Of a stretch of DNA of 64,000 nucleotides, positions 7,942 through 63,939 are shown in pieces. Origin of the DNA: Candidatus Barnesiella excrementavium (GTDB lineage: Bacteria > Bacteroidota > Bacteroidia > Bacteroidales > Barnesiellaceae); contig DXDM01000059.1 of NCBI GenBank assembly GCA_019115485.1, positions 1 through 64,000 of the forward strand, written 5' to 3'. A program made the translations under genes and the position numbers. Numbering within the stretch: the stretch's first letter is position 1; each line of letters opens with the position of its first letter. The notes below the pieces were generated by a model, which was not told the DNA's origin, searched no databases, and saw nothing but the letters and a program-made list of their open reading frames with translations.

Positions 7942-9195
7942 CTATTGACGGGTTTGTCCGTTGCCGGAAATGATATATTTATAAGTGGTCAGCTCGGGCA
8001 GAGCCATGGGCCCCCGGGCGTGGAGTTTCTGGGTACTGATACCGATTTCGGCACCGAAGCCGAACTGGCCTCCGTCGGTGAATGCCGTGGAGACGTTGGT
8101 GTAGACACAGGCGGCATCGACCTGGCGGGTGAATTGCCGCTTGCGCTCCTCGTCGTCGGTCACGATACACTCGCTGTGTTTCGACGAGTAGCGGGCAATG
8201 TGGTCCAGAGCTTCGTCAAACGAAGCCACCGTCTTCACGGCCATCTTGTAGTCGAGAAATTCGGTGCCGAAACTCTGGTCGGTCGCCGGTTGCAGCAAGG
8301 CGTCGGGGTAGTGTCCCGACAGAGCCTCGTAGGCTTGCGGGTCGGCATAGATGATGACCTGCTTCCCGGCCAGCGGCTCGCAGAGGGCGGGCAGGTCGGG
8401 TAACCGCTTTTCGTGAACGATAAGGCAGTCGAGGGCGTTGCACACGCTCACCCGTCGGGTCTTGGCATTGAACACGATGTCGCGACCCATGGTCAGGTCG
8501 CCGTATTCGTCGAAATAGGTGTGGCATATTCCCGCCCCGGTTTCGATGACCGGCACGAGGGCATGTTCGCGCACGTAGTTGATGAGGCGGCTGCTCCCCC
8601 GGGGAATCACCAGGTCGACCTTCCCCACGGCTGTTAACAACTGGTCGGTAACGTGGTGGTCGTTGGGTAGTAAAACCGCTGTATTCGAGTCGATTCCATG
8701 ACTTATCAACACCCTGTTGATAATGTTCATAAGTGCCTGGTTGGAACAAGCGGCGTCGTGCCCGCCCTTCAAGATGCAGACGTTGCCCGATTTCAGACAG
8801 AGCGAGAAGACGTCGAACGTTACGTTGGGGCGCGCTTCGTAGATGATGCCGATGACCCCGAACGGTACCGATATCTTGTCGATGTGCATGCCGTTGGGGC
8901 GGTCGAACGAGGCCAGCGTGCGTCCCAGCGGCGAGGGCAGCGAGGCGACGCGCCGCATGTCGGCCGTGATGCCGGCCAGACGTTCCGGGGTAAGCATCAG
9001 CCGGTCATACCGAGGGTCGCTCGGGTCCATGCGTTCCAGGTCGCGACGGTTCTCCTGCAAGAGGTAGTCGGTCTGCCGGTCGGCCTCGTCGGCCACGGAG
9101 CAGAGCACACGGGCTATCGTGGTGTCGTCGATGAGGTTCAGCTTGTTGGCTGCCACCCGGGCCTGGTCGAGAATGTGTGACAGATCGGTAGTCAT
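7942..9195 (-). CDS. proA: Gamma-glutamyl phosphate reductase
   Basis: This enzyme performs the second step of proline synthesis, NADPH-dependent reduction of glutamyl 5-phosphate to the semialdehyde. The 417-residue protein belongs to the aldehyde dehydrogenase superfamily. Recognisable segments are [28 protein letters not shown], the PRGSSRLI loop, and the catalytic-cysteine region [14 protein letters not shown]. The C-terminus is [32 protein letters not shown] chose the start at 9195 ([11 protein letters not shown]) because residues upstream of it lack homology and lie inside proB. A good -7 box sits just upstream, so proA-argF' may also be transcribed separately. Confidence 0.96.
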
Positions 9196-9217
9196 GACTG
9201 TGATGTGTGTATTTGAA

Positions 9218-9225
9218 CAAAAGTA
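9218..9225 (-). promoter_or_regulatory. Internal -7 box upstream of proA
   Basis: The minus strand reads TACTTTTG (TAnnTTTG) 22 nt before the proA start, in the 64-nt proB-proA gap. The -33 region is a poor match. Confidence 0.5.
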
Positions 9226-9259
9226 ATCTTTTTTTTCGAGTACGGGGACAAGATTCCCG

Positions 9260-10348
9260 TTAAAGTTGTTCGAGATAGAGATAATCGCAATGGACGAGCG
9301 GACGGGCTCCCTGCTTGCCGATGAGCTCCCGGGCCGAGGTGCTGTCGAATGCGACTCTTCCCACCCCGATGGCACGCCCTTCGGCATCGACAATGCGCAC
9401 GATGTCGTCGCGCTCGAAATCGCCCTCGATGCGGGTGACCCCGATGGGCAGGATACTGGCGGCCGGTTGCGAGTGAATGGCTTCGACGGCTCCGGCGTTG
9501 AGGTGGAGCCGTCCCTTGGCAAACCCCTCGGAGTGGGCAATCCACCGTTTGATGCTCGATATGGGGGTCGACGAGGGGACGAACCGGGTGCACACCTCGG
9601 TACTCCCGGCACAGAGCAGACGGGGCAGAATGTTCTCGCGCTTGCCGTTGGCGATAATCACTTCGATGCCTTCGTCGGCCACTTTGCGGGCGATGTGGCA
9701 TTTGGTGAGCATGCCGCCCCGGCCGAACGACGATTTGCCCGACTGGATATATTGCGACAGCTCCTGCCCGGGGTGTATCTCGGTGATGACCCGCGTGTCC
9801 GCTTCGCCCGGTGTCCCGTTGTAGATGCCGTCGACGTTGCTGAGAATGACCAGCGTCTCGACATCCATCATGGCCGAGATGAGTCCCGACAGTTCGTCGT
9901 TGTCGGTAAACATGAGTTCGGTCACCGAGATGGTGTCGTTCTCGTTGACGATGGGAATCACCCGGTTTTCGAGCATCACCTCCATGCACTGTTTCTGGGT
10001 GAGGTACTGCCGGCGGGTGGAGAAGTTCTCCTTGGTGGTGAGCACCTGTCCGCAGGCGATGTGGTGCTCGCGGAAGAGTTCGTAATAGCGGTTGATGAGC
10101 TTGGCCTGCCCTACGGCCGAGAAGAGCTGGCGGGCCGATACCGCGTCGAGCTTGTGGTCGATGTGCAGTTCGCTGCGGCCCGAGGCGACTGCCCCCGACG
10201 AGACCACAATCACGTCGAGCCCGGCCTTGTGCAGGTCGGCAATCTGGTCGGTGAGGGCCGACATGCGGGTGATGTCGAGCGATCCGTCGCGTCGGGTGAG
10301 CACGTTGCTCCCTATCTTCACGGCTATGCGTTTGCGGTTGTAACTCAT
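9260..10348 (-). CDS. proB: Glutamate 5-kinase
   Basis: The first enzyme of proline synthesis, it phosphorylates the gamma-carboxyl of glutamate and is usually feedback-inhibited by proline. The 362 residues contain an amino-acid kinase domain with [10 protein letters not shown]-like start (residues 8-18), [22 protein letters not shown] and the [16 protein letters not shown] loop. They end in a PUA domain from about residue 275, with [20 protein letters not shown]. The start overlaps the stop of the upstream DUF695-like gene by four bases, so the two are translationally coupled. ProA follows 64 nt downstream. Confidence 0.97.
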
Positions 10349-60737: not shown

Positions 60738-61313
60738 TTAGTAGTTGTTCTTTTTACGTTCGAAGTAGGCACGCGGGTGGGCGCAGGCCGGGCATTGCTC
60801 GGGCGCATTCTTGCCGCGGTACACATATCCGCAGTTGCGGCATTGCCATTCAATCTCTTCGTCGGCCGAGAATACGGTTCCGTTCTCGACATTGGCCAGC
60901 AGTTTGCGATAACGTTTCTCGTGCTCGGCCTCTACCTTGGCCACGTTGCGGAAGGTGAGGGCCACGGCGGGGAATCCCTCTTGCTCGGCTACGTCGGCAA
61001 AGTGAGGATAGAGGTCTACCCACTCTTCGTTTTCACCCTCGGCGGCTGCTTTCAGGTTCTCGGCTGTGGTGCCGATAACTCCGGCGGGAAAAGCAGCGGT
61101 AATCTCGACCATGCCCCCTTCGAGATATTTGAAGAATTTTTTGGCATGCTCTTTCTCCTGCTCGGCCGTCTCCATGAAGATGGCACTGATTTGTTCAAAA
61201 CCCTCTTTCTTGGCTACGCTGGCAAAGAAGGTGTAGCGGGTGCGGGCTTGTGATTCACCGGCGAACGATTTCAACAGATTCTGTTCGGTTTGAGTTCCTT
61301 TAATACTTTTCAT
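60738..61313 (-). CDS. rbr: Rubrerythrin
   Basis: This NAD(P)H-linked peroxidase protects anaerobes from hydrogen peroxide. The 191-residue protein has a ferritin-like diiron domain with ligands in [33 protein letters not shown] and [21 protein letters not shown]-terminal rubredoxin follows, with [15 protein letters not shown] and [10 protein letters not shown]. It requires an electron donor, likely the flavin reductase-rubredoxin just downstream. The promoter contains tandem PerR-like boxes at 61363-61394, so it is probably induced by peroxide. Confidence 0.97.
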
Positions 61314-61394: not shown

Positions 61395-61661
61395 ATAAAT
61401 ATGCCGGTTTTTAAGAATATTTTTGAATTGGGGGTAAAGATAGCTTTTTTGGAATAAGAAACAAATAAAAGTGAAGAATAGTGCCGTGAGAGGAAGCAAA
61501 GCTATTTGGGGAATGGAGAGGTACGGTTTCATGAGCCTGAAATAGTGATACGACGTATTATTGGTTTTTTATTTATTCGGGGAGTGATAGCTTTGTAGTT
61601 TGAGGCAAGGCTATCGAGATGAAATGGCGGCATCTATGTTCCATCTTAGTAAATTTTTTGT
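61395..61661. other. Gene-free stretch between rbr and the GNAT/IbrA/IbrB cassette
   Basis: This AT-rich 267-bp stretch holds no coding frame that I can support and no clear terminator. It belongs to a divergent gap of 429 bp that includes the rbr promoter at one end and the cassette promoter at the other. Confidence 0.5.
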
Positions 61662-61669: not shown

Positions 61670-61742
61670 TTGGACCTTAAAAAAGATGAACAATGGCTCT
61701 TTTCTTGCAGGAGAGTCTGAGAAATCGAATAAATGCTCCACC

Positions 61743-62138
61743 ATGATAATAGAGAAATTGCAGGGGACAGAAGAGCGACTTTACAAACTTGTCGCGCCGT
61801 TGGTTATGAGTATTCCCGTTATTCGTCAGAATAACAACTATCCGTTTAAAACTTCGCGCAAACACCTGTGGTTTGTAGCCGTGGACCGCGATTCGGTCGT
61901 GGGATTCATGCCTGTCGAGTGTAAAACCTCCGGAGCATATATCGATAACTATTATGCGGCCGGCGATTCGCCCGAGCTGTTGAAGAAACTTGTCGAGGCG
62001 GTTGTTGCCGAGTTTGTTCCGGAGCAGCCACTCAGTGCAATGGTACATGTGAGGCACTCTGATATTTTTAAAGCCTGCGGTTTTTCGCCCGTGAAGAATT
62101 GGAAACTGTATGTCAAAATGGAGTACGAGGGGTTATGA
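61743..62138 (+). CDS. GNAT-like protein heading the IbrA/IbrB cassette
   Basis: The 131-residue protein has a fold pattern like GNAT acetyltransferases: MIIEKLQGTEERLYKLVAPLVMSIPVIRQNN, strands KHLWFVAVDRDSVVGFMPVECKTSGAYIDNYYAAG, then SPELLKKLVEAVV and the closing LSAMVHVRHSDIFKACGFSPVKNWKLYVKM. The CoA-binding Q/RxxGxG/A loop is not clear, so activity is uncertain. I favour the ATG at 61743, although an upstream ATG at 61686 adds 19 residues. Its stop overlaps the ibrA-like start (ATGA), showing translational coupling. Its placement suggests it works with the sulfur-transfer-like pair downstream. Confidence 0.65.
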   Translation: MIIEKLQGTEERLYKLVAPLVMSIPVIRQNNNYPFKTSRKHLWFVAVDRDSVVGFMPVECKTSGAYIDNYYAAGDSPELLKKLVEAVVAEFVPEQPLSAMVHVRHSDIFKACGFSPVKNWKLYVKMEYEGL

Positions 62139-63421
62139 ACAGTTTCAGAAACAGCGTGTATGATGTAGCCATGGAGCGACTCGACCGCATATTTACCGAC
62201 TTTGACAACGTTTATGTCTCCTTTTCGGGCGGAAAGGATAGCGGGGTGCTGTTGAATCTCTGCATCGATTATCTCCGTCGCAAGCAGCCGGGTCGCCGAC
62301 TGGGGGTGTTTCACATCGACTACGAGGTGCAATACCAGGAGACCGTCCGTTATGTCGACAGGGTATTGGCCTCCAACACCGATATATTGGACGTTTATCG
62401 GGTGTGCGTGCCCTGCAAGGTGTTGACCTGCACCTCTATGTTTCAGAGCTACTGGCGCCCGTGGGAGGAGTCGAAGCGGGAACTTTGGGTGCGGGAGATG
62501 CCCGAAGGGGCCTACACGAGTGAGGATTTCGATTTCTTCACCGATGAGTTGTGGGACTATGAGTTCCAAATCAAATTTGCCGAGTGGCTGCACAAGCGGA
62601 AGTCGGCCCAGCGCACCTGTTGCCTGATAGGTATCCGTACTCAGGAGAGTCTGAACCGTTGGCGTACGGTGCACAGCGACCGCAACTATAAAAAGTACAA
62701 GGGGCTGAAATGGATTCGCGAGATGAAATATGGCATCTGCAATGCCTACCCCATACACGACTGGCTCACGACCGACATTTGGGTGGCCAACGGCCGCTTC
62801 CGTTGGGACTACAACCGTCTCTACGACCTGTACTATCGGGCGGGTGTCCCGCTCGACAAGCAGCGGGTGGCCAGTCCCTTTATCTCGCCGGCCATTTCGA
62901 GTTTGCGCCTCTACCGGGCCATCGACCCCGACATGTGGGGCAAGATGATAAGTCGGGTCAACGGGGTGAATTTTGCCGGTCTCTATGGAAACTCTTCGAT
63001 GATGGGGTGGCAATCGATCAAGTTGCCGCCCGGCATGACATGGGAACGGTATCTTCATTTCCTGTTGCAGACCCTGCCCGAGGAGACGCGGTGCAATTAC
63101 CAGCGCAAACTGGCGGTGAGTATCAACTTCTGGCGCGAGAAGGGGGGCTGTCTGGCCGATGAGACTATCGAAAAACTCGAAGCCATGGGCATTCCCATCG
63201 TCGTGGGCGACCACTCCAACTACAAGACCGACAAACGACCTGTAAAGATGGAGTATCTCGACGACATCGACCTGCCCGAATTCAAGGAGTTGCCCACCTT
63301 CAAGCGCATGTGCATCTGCATTCTTAAAAACGACCACACCTGCAAGTATATGGGTTTCTCGCTCAACAAGGTGGAGAAGGAGTTGAAAAATCGAGTTATG
63401 GAAAAGTATAAAACATTGTAG
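62135..63421 (+). CDS. ibrA: IbrA-type PAPS-reductase-like ATP pyrophosphatase (DUF3440)
   Basis: The 428-residue protein carries the PP-loop SFSGGKDSGVLLNL (SGGKDS at residues 31-36) of the adenine-nucleotide alpha-hydrolase superfamily. GVFHIDYEVQYQETVRYVDRVL and RVCVPCKVLTCTSMF follow, with WRPWEESKRELWVREMP. The second half, about 200-428, is the DUF3440 region (CLIGIRTQESLNRWRTV, YPIHDWLTTDIWVANGRFRWDYNRLYDLYYRAGVPLDKQRVASPF). It matches IbrA of E. coli immunoglobulin-binding-regulator loci; relatives such as DndC adenylate or reduce sulfur compounds. The start at 62135 overlaps the GNAT-like stop. ibrB follows 5 nt later. Confidence 0.9.
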   Translation: MNSFRNSVYDVAMERLDRIFTDFDNVYVSFSGGKDSGVLLNLCIDYLRRKQPGRRLGVFHIDYEVQYQETVRYVDRVLASNTDILDVYRVCVPCKVLTCTSMFQSYWRPWEESKRELWVREMPEGAYTSEDFDFFTDELWDYEFQIKFAEWLHKRKSAQRTCCLIGIRTQESLNRWRTVHSDRNYKKYKGLKWIREMKYGICNAYPIHDWLTTDIWVANGRFRWDYNRLYDLYYRAGVPLDKQRVASPFISPAISSLRLYRAIDPDMWGKMISRVNGVNFAGLYGNSSMMGWQSIKLPPGMTWERYLHFLLQTLPEETRCNYQRKLAVSINFWREKGGCLADETIEKLEAMGIPIVVGDHSNYKTDKRPVKMEYLDDIDLPEFKELPTFKRMCICILKNDHTCKYMGFSLNKVEKELKNRVMEKYKTL

Positions 63422-63426
63422 AAGAG

Positions 63427-63939
63427 ATGGAAGCGTATAAAAGTCCGGTTTATCAGGTCATCGCCGTCCCTGTGGAGAAGGTGGTGGCCAATACCTATAA
63501 TCCCAATGTGGTGGCTCCGCCCGAAATGAAATTGCTCGAACTCTCGATTTGGGAGGACGGCTATACGATGCCTTGTGTGTGCTACTACCGGCCCGAGACC
63601 GACCAGTACGAGCTGGTCGACGGCTTTCACCGCTACAAGGTGATGCTCACCTCACCCCGCATCTATGAGCGGGAGAAGGGGCTGTTGCCGGTAGTGGTCA
63701 TCGACAAGGATATCTCGAACCGCATGGCTTCGACCATTCGACACAATCGGGCCCGGGGCATGCATAACGTCGAGTTGATGTGCGAAATCGTTTCGGAGTT
63801 GACCAAGGCCGGAATGTCCGACAGCTGGATTATGAAGAATATCGGCATGGACAAGGACGAGTTGTTGCGCTACAAACAGATTTCGGGGTTGGCCGAACTC
63901 TTTGCCGACAAGGAGTTCAGTCTCACGAAGGAGATATAG
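63427..63939 (+). CDS. ibrB: IbrB-type ParB/sulfiredoxin-fold protein
   Basis: The 170-residue protein has a ParB-like fold: an N-terminal PVYQVIAVPVEKVVANTYNPNVVAPPEMKLLELSIWEDGYTMPCVC, the conserved core YELVDGFHRYK (residues 61-71, like the GxHR..A of ParB/Srx), then VVVIDKDISNRMASTIRHNRARGMH. An HTH-like end follows (MCEIVSELTKAGMSDSWIMKNIGMDKDELLRYKQIS). It matches IbrB. The ParB/Srx fold binds CTP or ATP and can have nuclease or phosphotransfer activity. Only 5 nt separate it from ibrA. The gene seems complete, ending 61 bp before the window edge. Confidence 0.9.
   Translation: MEAYKSPVYQVIAVPVEKVVANTYNPNVVAPPEMKLLELSIWEDGYTMPCVCYYRPETDQYELVDGFHRYKVMLTSPRIYEREKGLLPVVVIDKDISNRMASTIRHNRARGMHNVELMCEIVSELTKAGMSDSWIMKNIGMDKDELLRYKQISGLAELFADKEFSLTKEI

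Follow-up and report, generated by a model that had tools for sequence, protein, structure and literature searches.

A GNAT-fold protein is co-inherited with an IbrA/IbrB pair in Bacteroidales chromosomes

The window analyzed here consists of bases 1 to 64,000 of a 219-kb contig (C54) from Candidatus Barnesiella excrementavium, whose genome comprises 2.68 Mb in 60 contigs and is 94% complete. Close to its end the window carries three genes on the forward strand: orf1 (61743-62138), encoding a GNAT-fold protein of 131 amino acids (aa), ibrA (ybdN-like, 62135-63421), encoding a 428-aa protein with a PP-loop/PAPS_reduct region (residues 26-235) followed by DUF3440 (residues 237-416), and ibrB (ybdM-like, 63427-63939), encoding a 170-aa protein with a ParB N-terminal fold and the motifs DGFHR and RHNRARG. 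We found this trio, with orf1 as the third cassette member, to be a fixed, co-inherited unit of some Bacteroidales chromosomes. Our tentative preference is for a reading in which the three products act jointly as a nucleic-acid-modifying enzyme.

Profile searches with orf1 and DUF3440 were performed in one draw of 295 genomes from the order of the window, the Bacteroidales. orf1 was found in 22 and DUF3440 in 25 of these genomes, and all 22 were among the 25. The association was thereby confirmed to exceed chance (hypergeometric p of 2.7e-30, a value that ignores the kinship of the genomes). orf1 adjoined the DUF3440 gene in 21 of the 22 genomes, while the two lay on separate contigs in G284; one of the 22 copies of orf1, in G264, had an internal stop. 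DUF3440 without orf1 was found in three genomes: G105 and G025, both with a phage-like upstream helicase, and G060 (weak partial match). A draw from the genus contained orf1 in eight of nine genomes, and across the phylum DUF3440 was found in four of 296 genomes, three of them above the cut-off and two of the four belonging to the order of the window.

The gene neighborhood was analyzed in the best 80 of at least 558 confirmed loci from a genome-wide scan, a set that is biased because its members were chosen as nearest to the window IbrA, whose closest relatives are from Barnesiella. orf1 was located before ibrA in 77 of the 80 loci, and the GNAT-like gene is thus present in most homologous loci within the Bacteroidales. 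The remaining three were an undecidable locus at a contig edge (L073), a locus with a split ibrA and no orf1 (L069) and a phage-type locus with a helicase (L140). L069 (5055-6803) is from the draft genome of Barnesiella sp. An22, where ibrB is whole, and the trio may be decaying in this strain. In two Odoribacteraceae loci (L112 and L115) orf1 and ibrA were present and ibrB was not directly downstream. Clustering of the flanking open reading frames recovered the trio alone; the next families were found in 16, 14, and 13 of the 80 loci. No fourth neighbor, modification enzyme, sulfur donor or metabolic gene was shared across the 80 loci, nor were neighbors of a sulfate-assimilation operon common to them. 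For orf1 and IbrA the distance matrices correlated at 0.76 in 73 loci, and none of 500 permutations reached this value. Since the permutations ignore tree structure, the correlation shows co-inheritance rather than function.

An initial annotation, made from the sequence of the window, had described a tightly packed cassette of three genes beside a rubrerythrin locus, which agrees with the coordinates of the reading frames. The TGA of orf1 and the ATG of ibrA overlap in an ATGA at 62135-62138, and five nucleotides separate ibrA from ibrB. The overlap between orf1 and ibrA (spacing -4) was the most frequent spacing in related loci (15/73). An alternative in-frame ATG for orf1 is located at 61686, while 61743 is the start in most aligned relatives. 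The pattern TAnnTTTG, which is the -7 promoter pattern of Bacteroides, was found upstream of orf1 at 61418, 61588, and 61662, the last of these candidate -7 elements lying about 80 nucleotides before the start.

orf1 gave no match in Pfam (E ≤ 1), NCBIfam or PADLOC profiles. Sequence search yielded 130 relatives and profile search 1900. Among the 120 listed of each set, none had a precomputed Pfam domain and one (P0123) carried the source name N-acetyltransferase-domain protein. The Pfam GNAT cut-off was passed by the relatives L285, L330, L286, and the archaeal P0197, and failed by P0200 from Streptomyces. The structural model of the orf1 product is predicted to adopt a GNAT fold, as had been proposed in the initial annotation. 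The turn from strand 4 to helix 3, however, lacked the acetyl-CoA loop Q/RxxGxG/A of GNAT acetyltransferases such as ElaA and RimI in all 106 sequences aligned, five of which had loop-like letters elsewhere. We therefore label the protein as GNAT-fold and not as an acetyltransferase, and the earlier proposal that it adds an acyl group, at least one borne on CoA, is not supported for this lineage. The subunit may descend from an acetyltransferase and have kept a substrate-side role alone in the Bacteroidales. Mom of phage Mu is a DNA-modifying protein with a GNAT fold.

IbrA was found to match Pfam DUF3440 (PF11922) with 298.4 bits (cut-off 25) and PAPS_reduct (PF01507) with 49.5 bits (cut-off 22.5), as well as phrog_2302 (E 5e-99), which bears out its assignment as an IbrA-type PP-loop protein. 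In the predicted model, residues 1-264 resemble FAD synthase, CysD, and APS/PAPS reductases, with FAD synthase and CysD as the nearest folds, while residues 265-428 lie outside most of the fold matches listed. The PP-loop is invariant in the alignment of IbrA, and three cysteines are nearly so in the 82 rows: Cys91 (81/82), Cys393 (80/82), and Cys403 (77/82). Loss of a catalytic cysteine was rejected on this conservation. One or another of the cysteines is missing in eight of the 82 rows, from phages, viruses, and E. coli, and we therefore do not claim a universal metal site; YbdN of E. coli K-12 has an Ala at the position of Cys91.

With the CysD and PAPS reductase profiles of NCBIfam IbrA remained below the cut-offs (25.2 bits against 195 and 14.8 against 154, respectively), and no second PF01507 match was found in the genome (94% complete), other families of the sulfate pathway not having been searched. 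A role in sulfate assimilation as CysD or CysH is therefore unlikely and was rejected on these profiles, the lack of another PF01507 protein and the lack of common neighbors. Kinship with DndC, suggested in the initial annotation, was not supported: IbrA had no match to the DndC profile in PADLOC at E ≤ 1, and the trio had no fourth common neighbor. Membership of DndC or BrxP was rejected on profiles, the BrxP match being short and weak (53 residues, E 3.1e-05).

The third protein had been described as having a ParB fold, which the sequence profiles support. IbrB matched phrog_2159 (E 5.8e-74) and Noc/ParB structures, with an E of 4.5e-06 to the Noc structure 7ol9, while the match to Pfam ParB_N (E 0.0016) was under the curated cut-off. 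Its tail was judged by eye to be a possible helix-turn-helix.

The partners of IbrA/IbrB outside chromosomes were assessed in three viral scans; the best 80 each of 532, 426, and 377 confirmed loci gave a sample of 224 loci, 206 of them with distinct IbrA. A partner was counted when encoded on the same strand within 400 nucleotides of the IbrA/IbrB genes. A family that we term fam2 was the most common (129/206), followed by a protein of 80-90 aa resembling the C-terminus of IbrA (67/206), an SNF2-type helicase (PF00176/PF00271, 46/206) and an orf1-family GNAT-like protein (16/206). Without the distance limit, the first three of these were found in 130, 68, and 50 loci. Of the 15 viral GNAT genes placed by script, four precede both genes, one follows both, and 10 lie between them, as does the sixteenth (L299). 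A helicase neighbor was found in 44 of the 49 loci of the viral BLAST cluster containing the window IbrA. The idea of a three-component system held in the Bacteroidales, where all 22 genomes with orf1 also had DUF3440, and did not extend to the viral loci at large or to the enterobacterial ibrAB loci examined, from which the GNAT gene was absent.

The main partner of phage IbrAB still to be explained is fam2. Its members are about 115-195 aa long (e.g., L308:3445-3870 and L173:4413-4997) with the consensus R..H.Y..WE....GM ... SCE..LT....NR.AW.G.AA ... PE..TR.AW, and the four members scanned had no Pfam match of their own. The small IbrA-tail homolog stands alone just upstream of IbrA in L162, L168, L174, L183, and L195-L198; that of L174 matches positions 128-179 of PF11922. 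It is apparently fused to fam2 in L170 and L173, and L167 apparently has a GNAT-like domain joined to a segment homologous to the tail of IbrA.

Five plasmids were examined from 40 listed of 598 matching records; of these 598 records with IbrA homologs, 323 were from Klebsiella and 191 from Escherichia, so that such homologs are common on enterobacterial plasmids. A GNAT gene follows ibrB on two of the five, one from Streptomyces (L226) and one from the haloarchaeon Halomontanus (L229, where it is annotated as GNAT), and precedes ibrA on a third, from Parabacteroides (L228). The Halomontanus plasmid also carries a second, shorter PAPS-reductase-family gene (L229:6415-7161) after the DUF3440, ParB and GNAT genes. 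On both enterobacterial plasmids read, ibrAB adjoins siderophore genes.

A CoA-type loop (e.g., RGKGI) was present in eight of 41 GNAT rows (L285, L286, L300, L305, L330, L364, L372, and L229), and L299 has a similar loop, RRRGIY. The copies without the loop were those of the Bacteroidales, L167, L181, L192, L205, L209, L216, L221, L295, and that of Streptomyces. Support in the GNAT tree is low (9 of 38 inner branches starred), and the tree is compatible with one or more losses of the loop. On a FastTree tree of 296 IbrA proteins, in which 15 viral GNATs were labeled and L299 was not, the state of having a GNAT beside it changed at least 17 times, 15 of these forced by starred branches, compared to 80 times in shuffles; 12 changes were among the 214 rows outside the Bacteroidales. 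These counts are approximate, because missing labels can stem from contig ends or profile limits. The repeated association in differing positions is the best evidence that the GNAT protein works with IbrA/IbrB.

The viral GNATs, found by profile, are distant kin of orf1. A viral scan with the Bacteroidales orf1 alignment gave 29 pattern hits, none confirmed, and a tblastn search of 50,697 phage records with orf1 matched four unannotated fecal records only, all of which also matched IbrA. With the L285 GNAT as query, tblastn gave no match. The Bacteroidales form of orf1 was therefore not encountered in these phage sets. Two unverified fecal records named Bacteriophage sp., MT839645.1 (L060) and MT835983.1 (L059), resemble Bacteroidales chromosome fragments by eye, in which galE-like, aminotransferase-like, and transporter genes surround the trio. 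In the named phages CHPC877 (Streptococcus), CR28 (Lactobacillus), and phiFN37 (Fusobacterium), IbrA is 46-56% and IbrB 65-71% identical to that of the window. None of five named phages (L058 and L061-L064) had a GNAT partner and three had a helicase. phiFN37 (L062) carries a second ParB-like gene (8745-9266) beside a gene annotated as queuine tRNA-ribosyltransferase type, a pairing that resembles Dpd DNA modification.

The window pair corresponds to YbdN/YbdM of E. coli K-12 (L145) and to E. coli IbrA/IbrB in that a DUF3440/PP-loop gene with PAPS_reduct adjoins a ParB-fold gene, and the K-12 pair matches the same profiles. Unlike the window, the K-12 pair has no GNAT partner, and the usual partners of phage IbrAB modules are fam2, the DUF3440-tail mini-protein or the helicase. 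The Dnd and Type-4 BREX phosphorothioation systems share with the window a PP-loop enzyme of PAPS-reductase type (DndC and BrxP), but differ by the profile results given above and by the lack of any neighbor family, apart from the trio, common to more than 16 of the 80 loci. The following statements come from excerpts of the papers cited. In PMC12839542, the only paper found that combines PAPS reductase, ParB, and GNAT, DndB is termed a ParB-superfamily protein, and GNAT is paired with TGT in BREX-related loci and not with IbrAB. YbdO/CitR represses YbdN/YbdM in E. coli K-12 (PMC9068703), while YbdM is termed uncharacterised (PMC8764527). Phage FCL-2 has IbrAB with two upstream open reading frames (PMC4541368), a prophage PAPS-reductase-like gene is likened to DndC (PMC8092301), and a ParB-DUF3440 pair in Listeria is a toxin-antitoxin candidate by association (PMC7020466). 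In the open-licence PMC literature we found neither a report of a GNAT partner of IbrA/IbrB nor one of a biochemical activity of the pair.

A rubrerythrin-like gene (60738-61313) is located on the reverse strand, divergent from the cassette. The first plausible gene past ibrB, beyond 64 kb, encodes 284 aa on the opposite strand (metallo-beta-lactamase-like by eye). The cassette is therefore taken to end at ibrB, and a fourth gene beyond the window, which had been anticipated, was rejected. The flanks, covering 57-64 kb and about 11 kb past the cassette, were judged by eye to be housekeeping-like (branched-chain aminotransferase, rubrerythrin, galE-like, ribosomal L25-like, and peptidyl-tRNA hydrolase-like), and no integrase or defense gene was recognized there.

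In the reading that we tentatively favor, IbrA would use ATP to activate its target, presumably by adenylation, IbrB would likely anchor the complex to DNA or RNA, and the GNAT-fold protein, having no acetyl-CoA loop, would likely recognize or position the substrate. The target would be a nucleic acid, given the ParB fold of IbrB and the SNF2-type helicase gene found next to many of the viral relatives. The chromosomal cassette and the phage modules probably share an origin. A more specific and rather doubtful version is that gut Bacteroidales have domesticated a phage DNA-hypermodification system. Here IbrA would adenylate a group on a base or on the backbone, with the GNAT-fold subunit adding or placing the new group and IbrB loading the complex on DNA; the Bacteroidales GNAT, without CoA, would use another donor or be a specificity subunit.

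Several observations weigh against joint nucleic acid modification. A modification enzyme or sulfur donor was not a common neighbor in the 80 loci. The link to a helicase was strong mainly among the viral loci closest to the window IbrA, and the usual order of phage genes may account for it. In the viral loci fam2 was a more frequent partner than the GNAT protein, and no GNAT gene adjoined ibrAB in E. coli K-12 or on the plasmids examined from Klebsiella and E. fergusonii. Finally, E. coli IbrAB are cited, in papers that refer to the original study, as activators of prophage eib genes (Sandt et al., 2002), which fits regulation too.

A regulator of gene expression, in which IbrB likely binds DNA through its ParB and helix-turn-helix parts and is tuned by IbrA and the GNAT-like protein via bound nucleotide, is the alternative we take most seriously, although we regard it as improbable. 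The eib citation and the ParB/Noc matches of IbrB speak for it, while the invariant PP-loop and near-invariant cysteines of IbrA point to catalysis. Modification of RNA, probably tRNA, would be in line with the PP-loop fold that IbrA has in common with TilS, NcsA, and TtuA; we consider this unlikely. The same holds for the idea that the cassette, once a phage module, was domesticated and protects its carrier from phages by self-marking, exclusion or interference. Its phage kin, its patchy presence (DUF3440 in fewer than a tenth of the Bacteroidales genomes, 25/295) and the fast evolution of orf1, which has a mean identity of 41% compared to 64% for IbrA and 75% for IbrB (73 loci), are consistent with such a role. 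On the other hand, PADLOC gave the weak BrxP match only, the flanks of the window are housekeeping-like and the cassette is without a nuclease or effector gene. As for a pglZ/brx context, each non-trio neighbor family was found in at most 16 of the 80 loci, the rarer ones not having been searched with defense profiles. No evidence was found for the defense role raised in the initial annotation. SerK is a serine kinase with a ParB fold, and the weak SerK match of IbrB (E 0.07) and the nearest folds of IbrA could suggest synthesis or modification of a small molecule, such as an adenylylated or phosphorylated metabolite, with IbrB as a SerK-like kinase, but this is the least probable reading, as no metabolic neighbor is common to the 80 loci and the genome has no PAPS_reduct protein besides IbrA, which makes sulfate assimilation unlikely.

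Altogether, the GNAT-fold member is a recurrent addition to the IbrA/IbrB pair that is unreported in the literature searched. IbrA/IbrB pairs occur in phages and gut commensals as well as on enterobacterial plasmids. With a third component that recurs, has a catalytic-type fold and carries the CoA loop in some lineages but not in others, the function of IbrA/IbrB becomes testable through a shared substrate. If the cassette does mark DNA or RNA, the mark would be a modification new to gut bacteria and phages.
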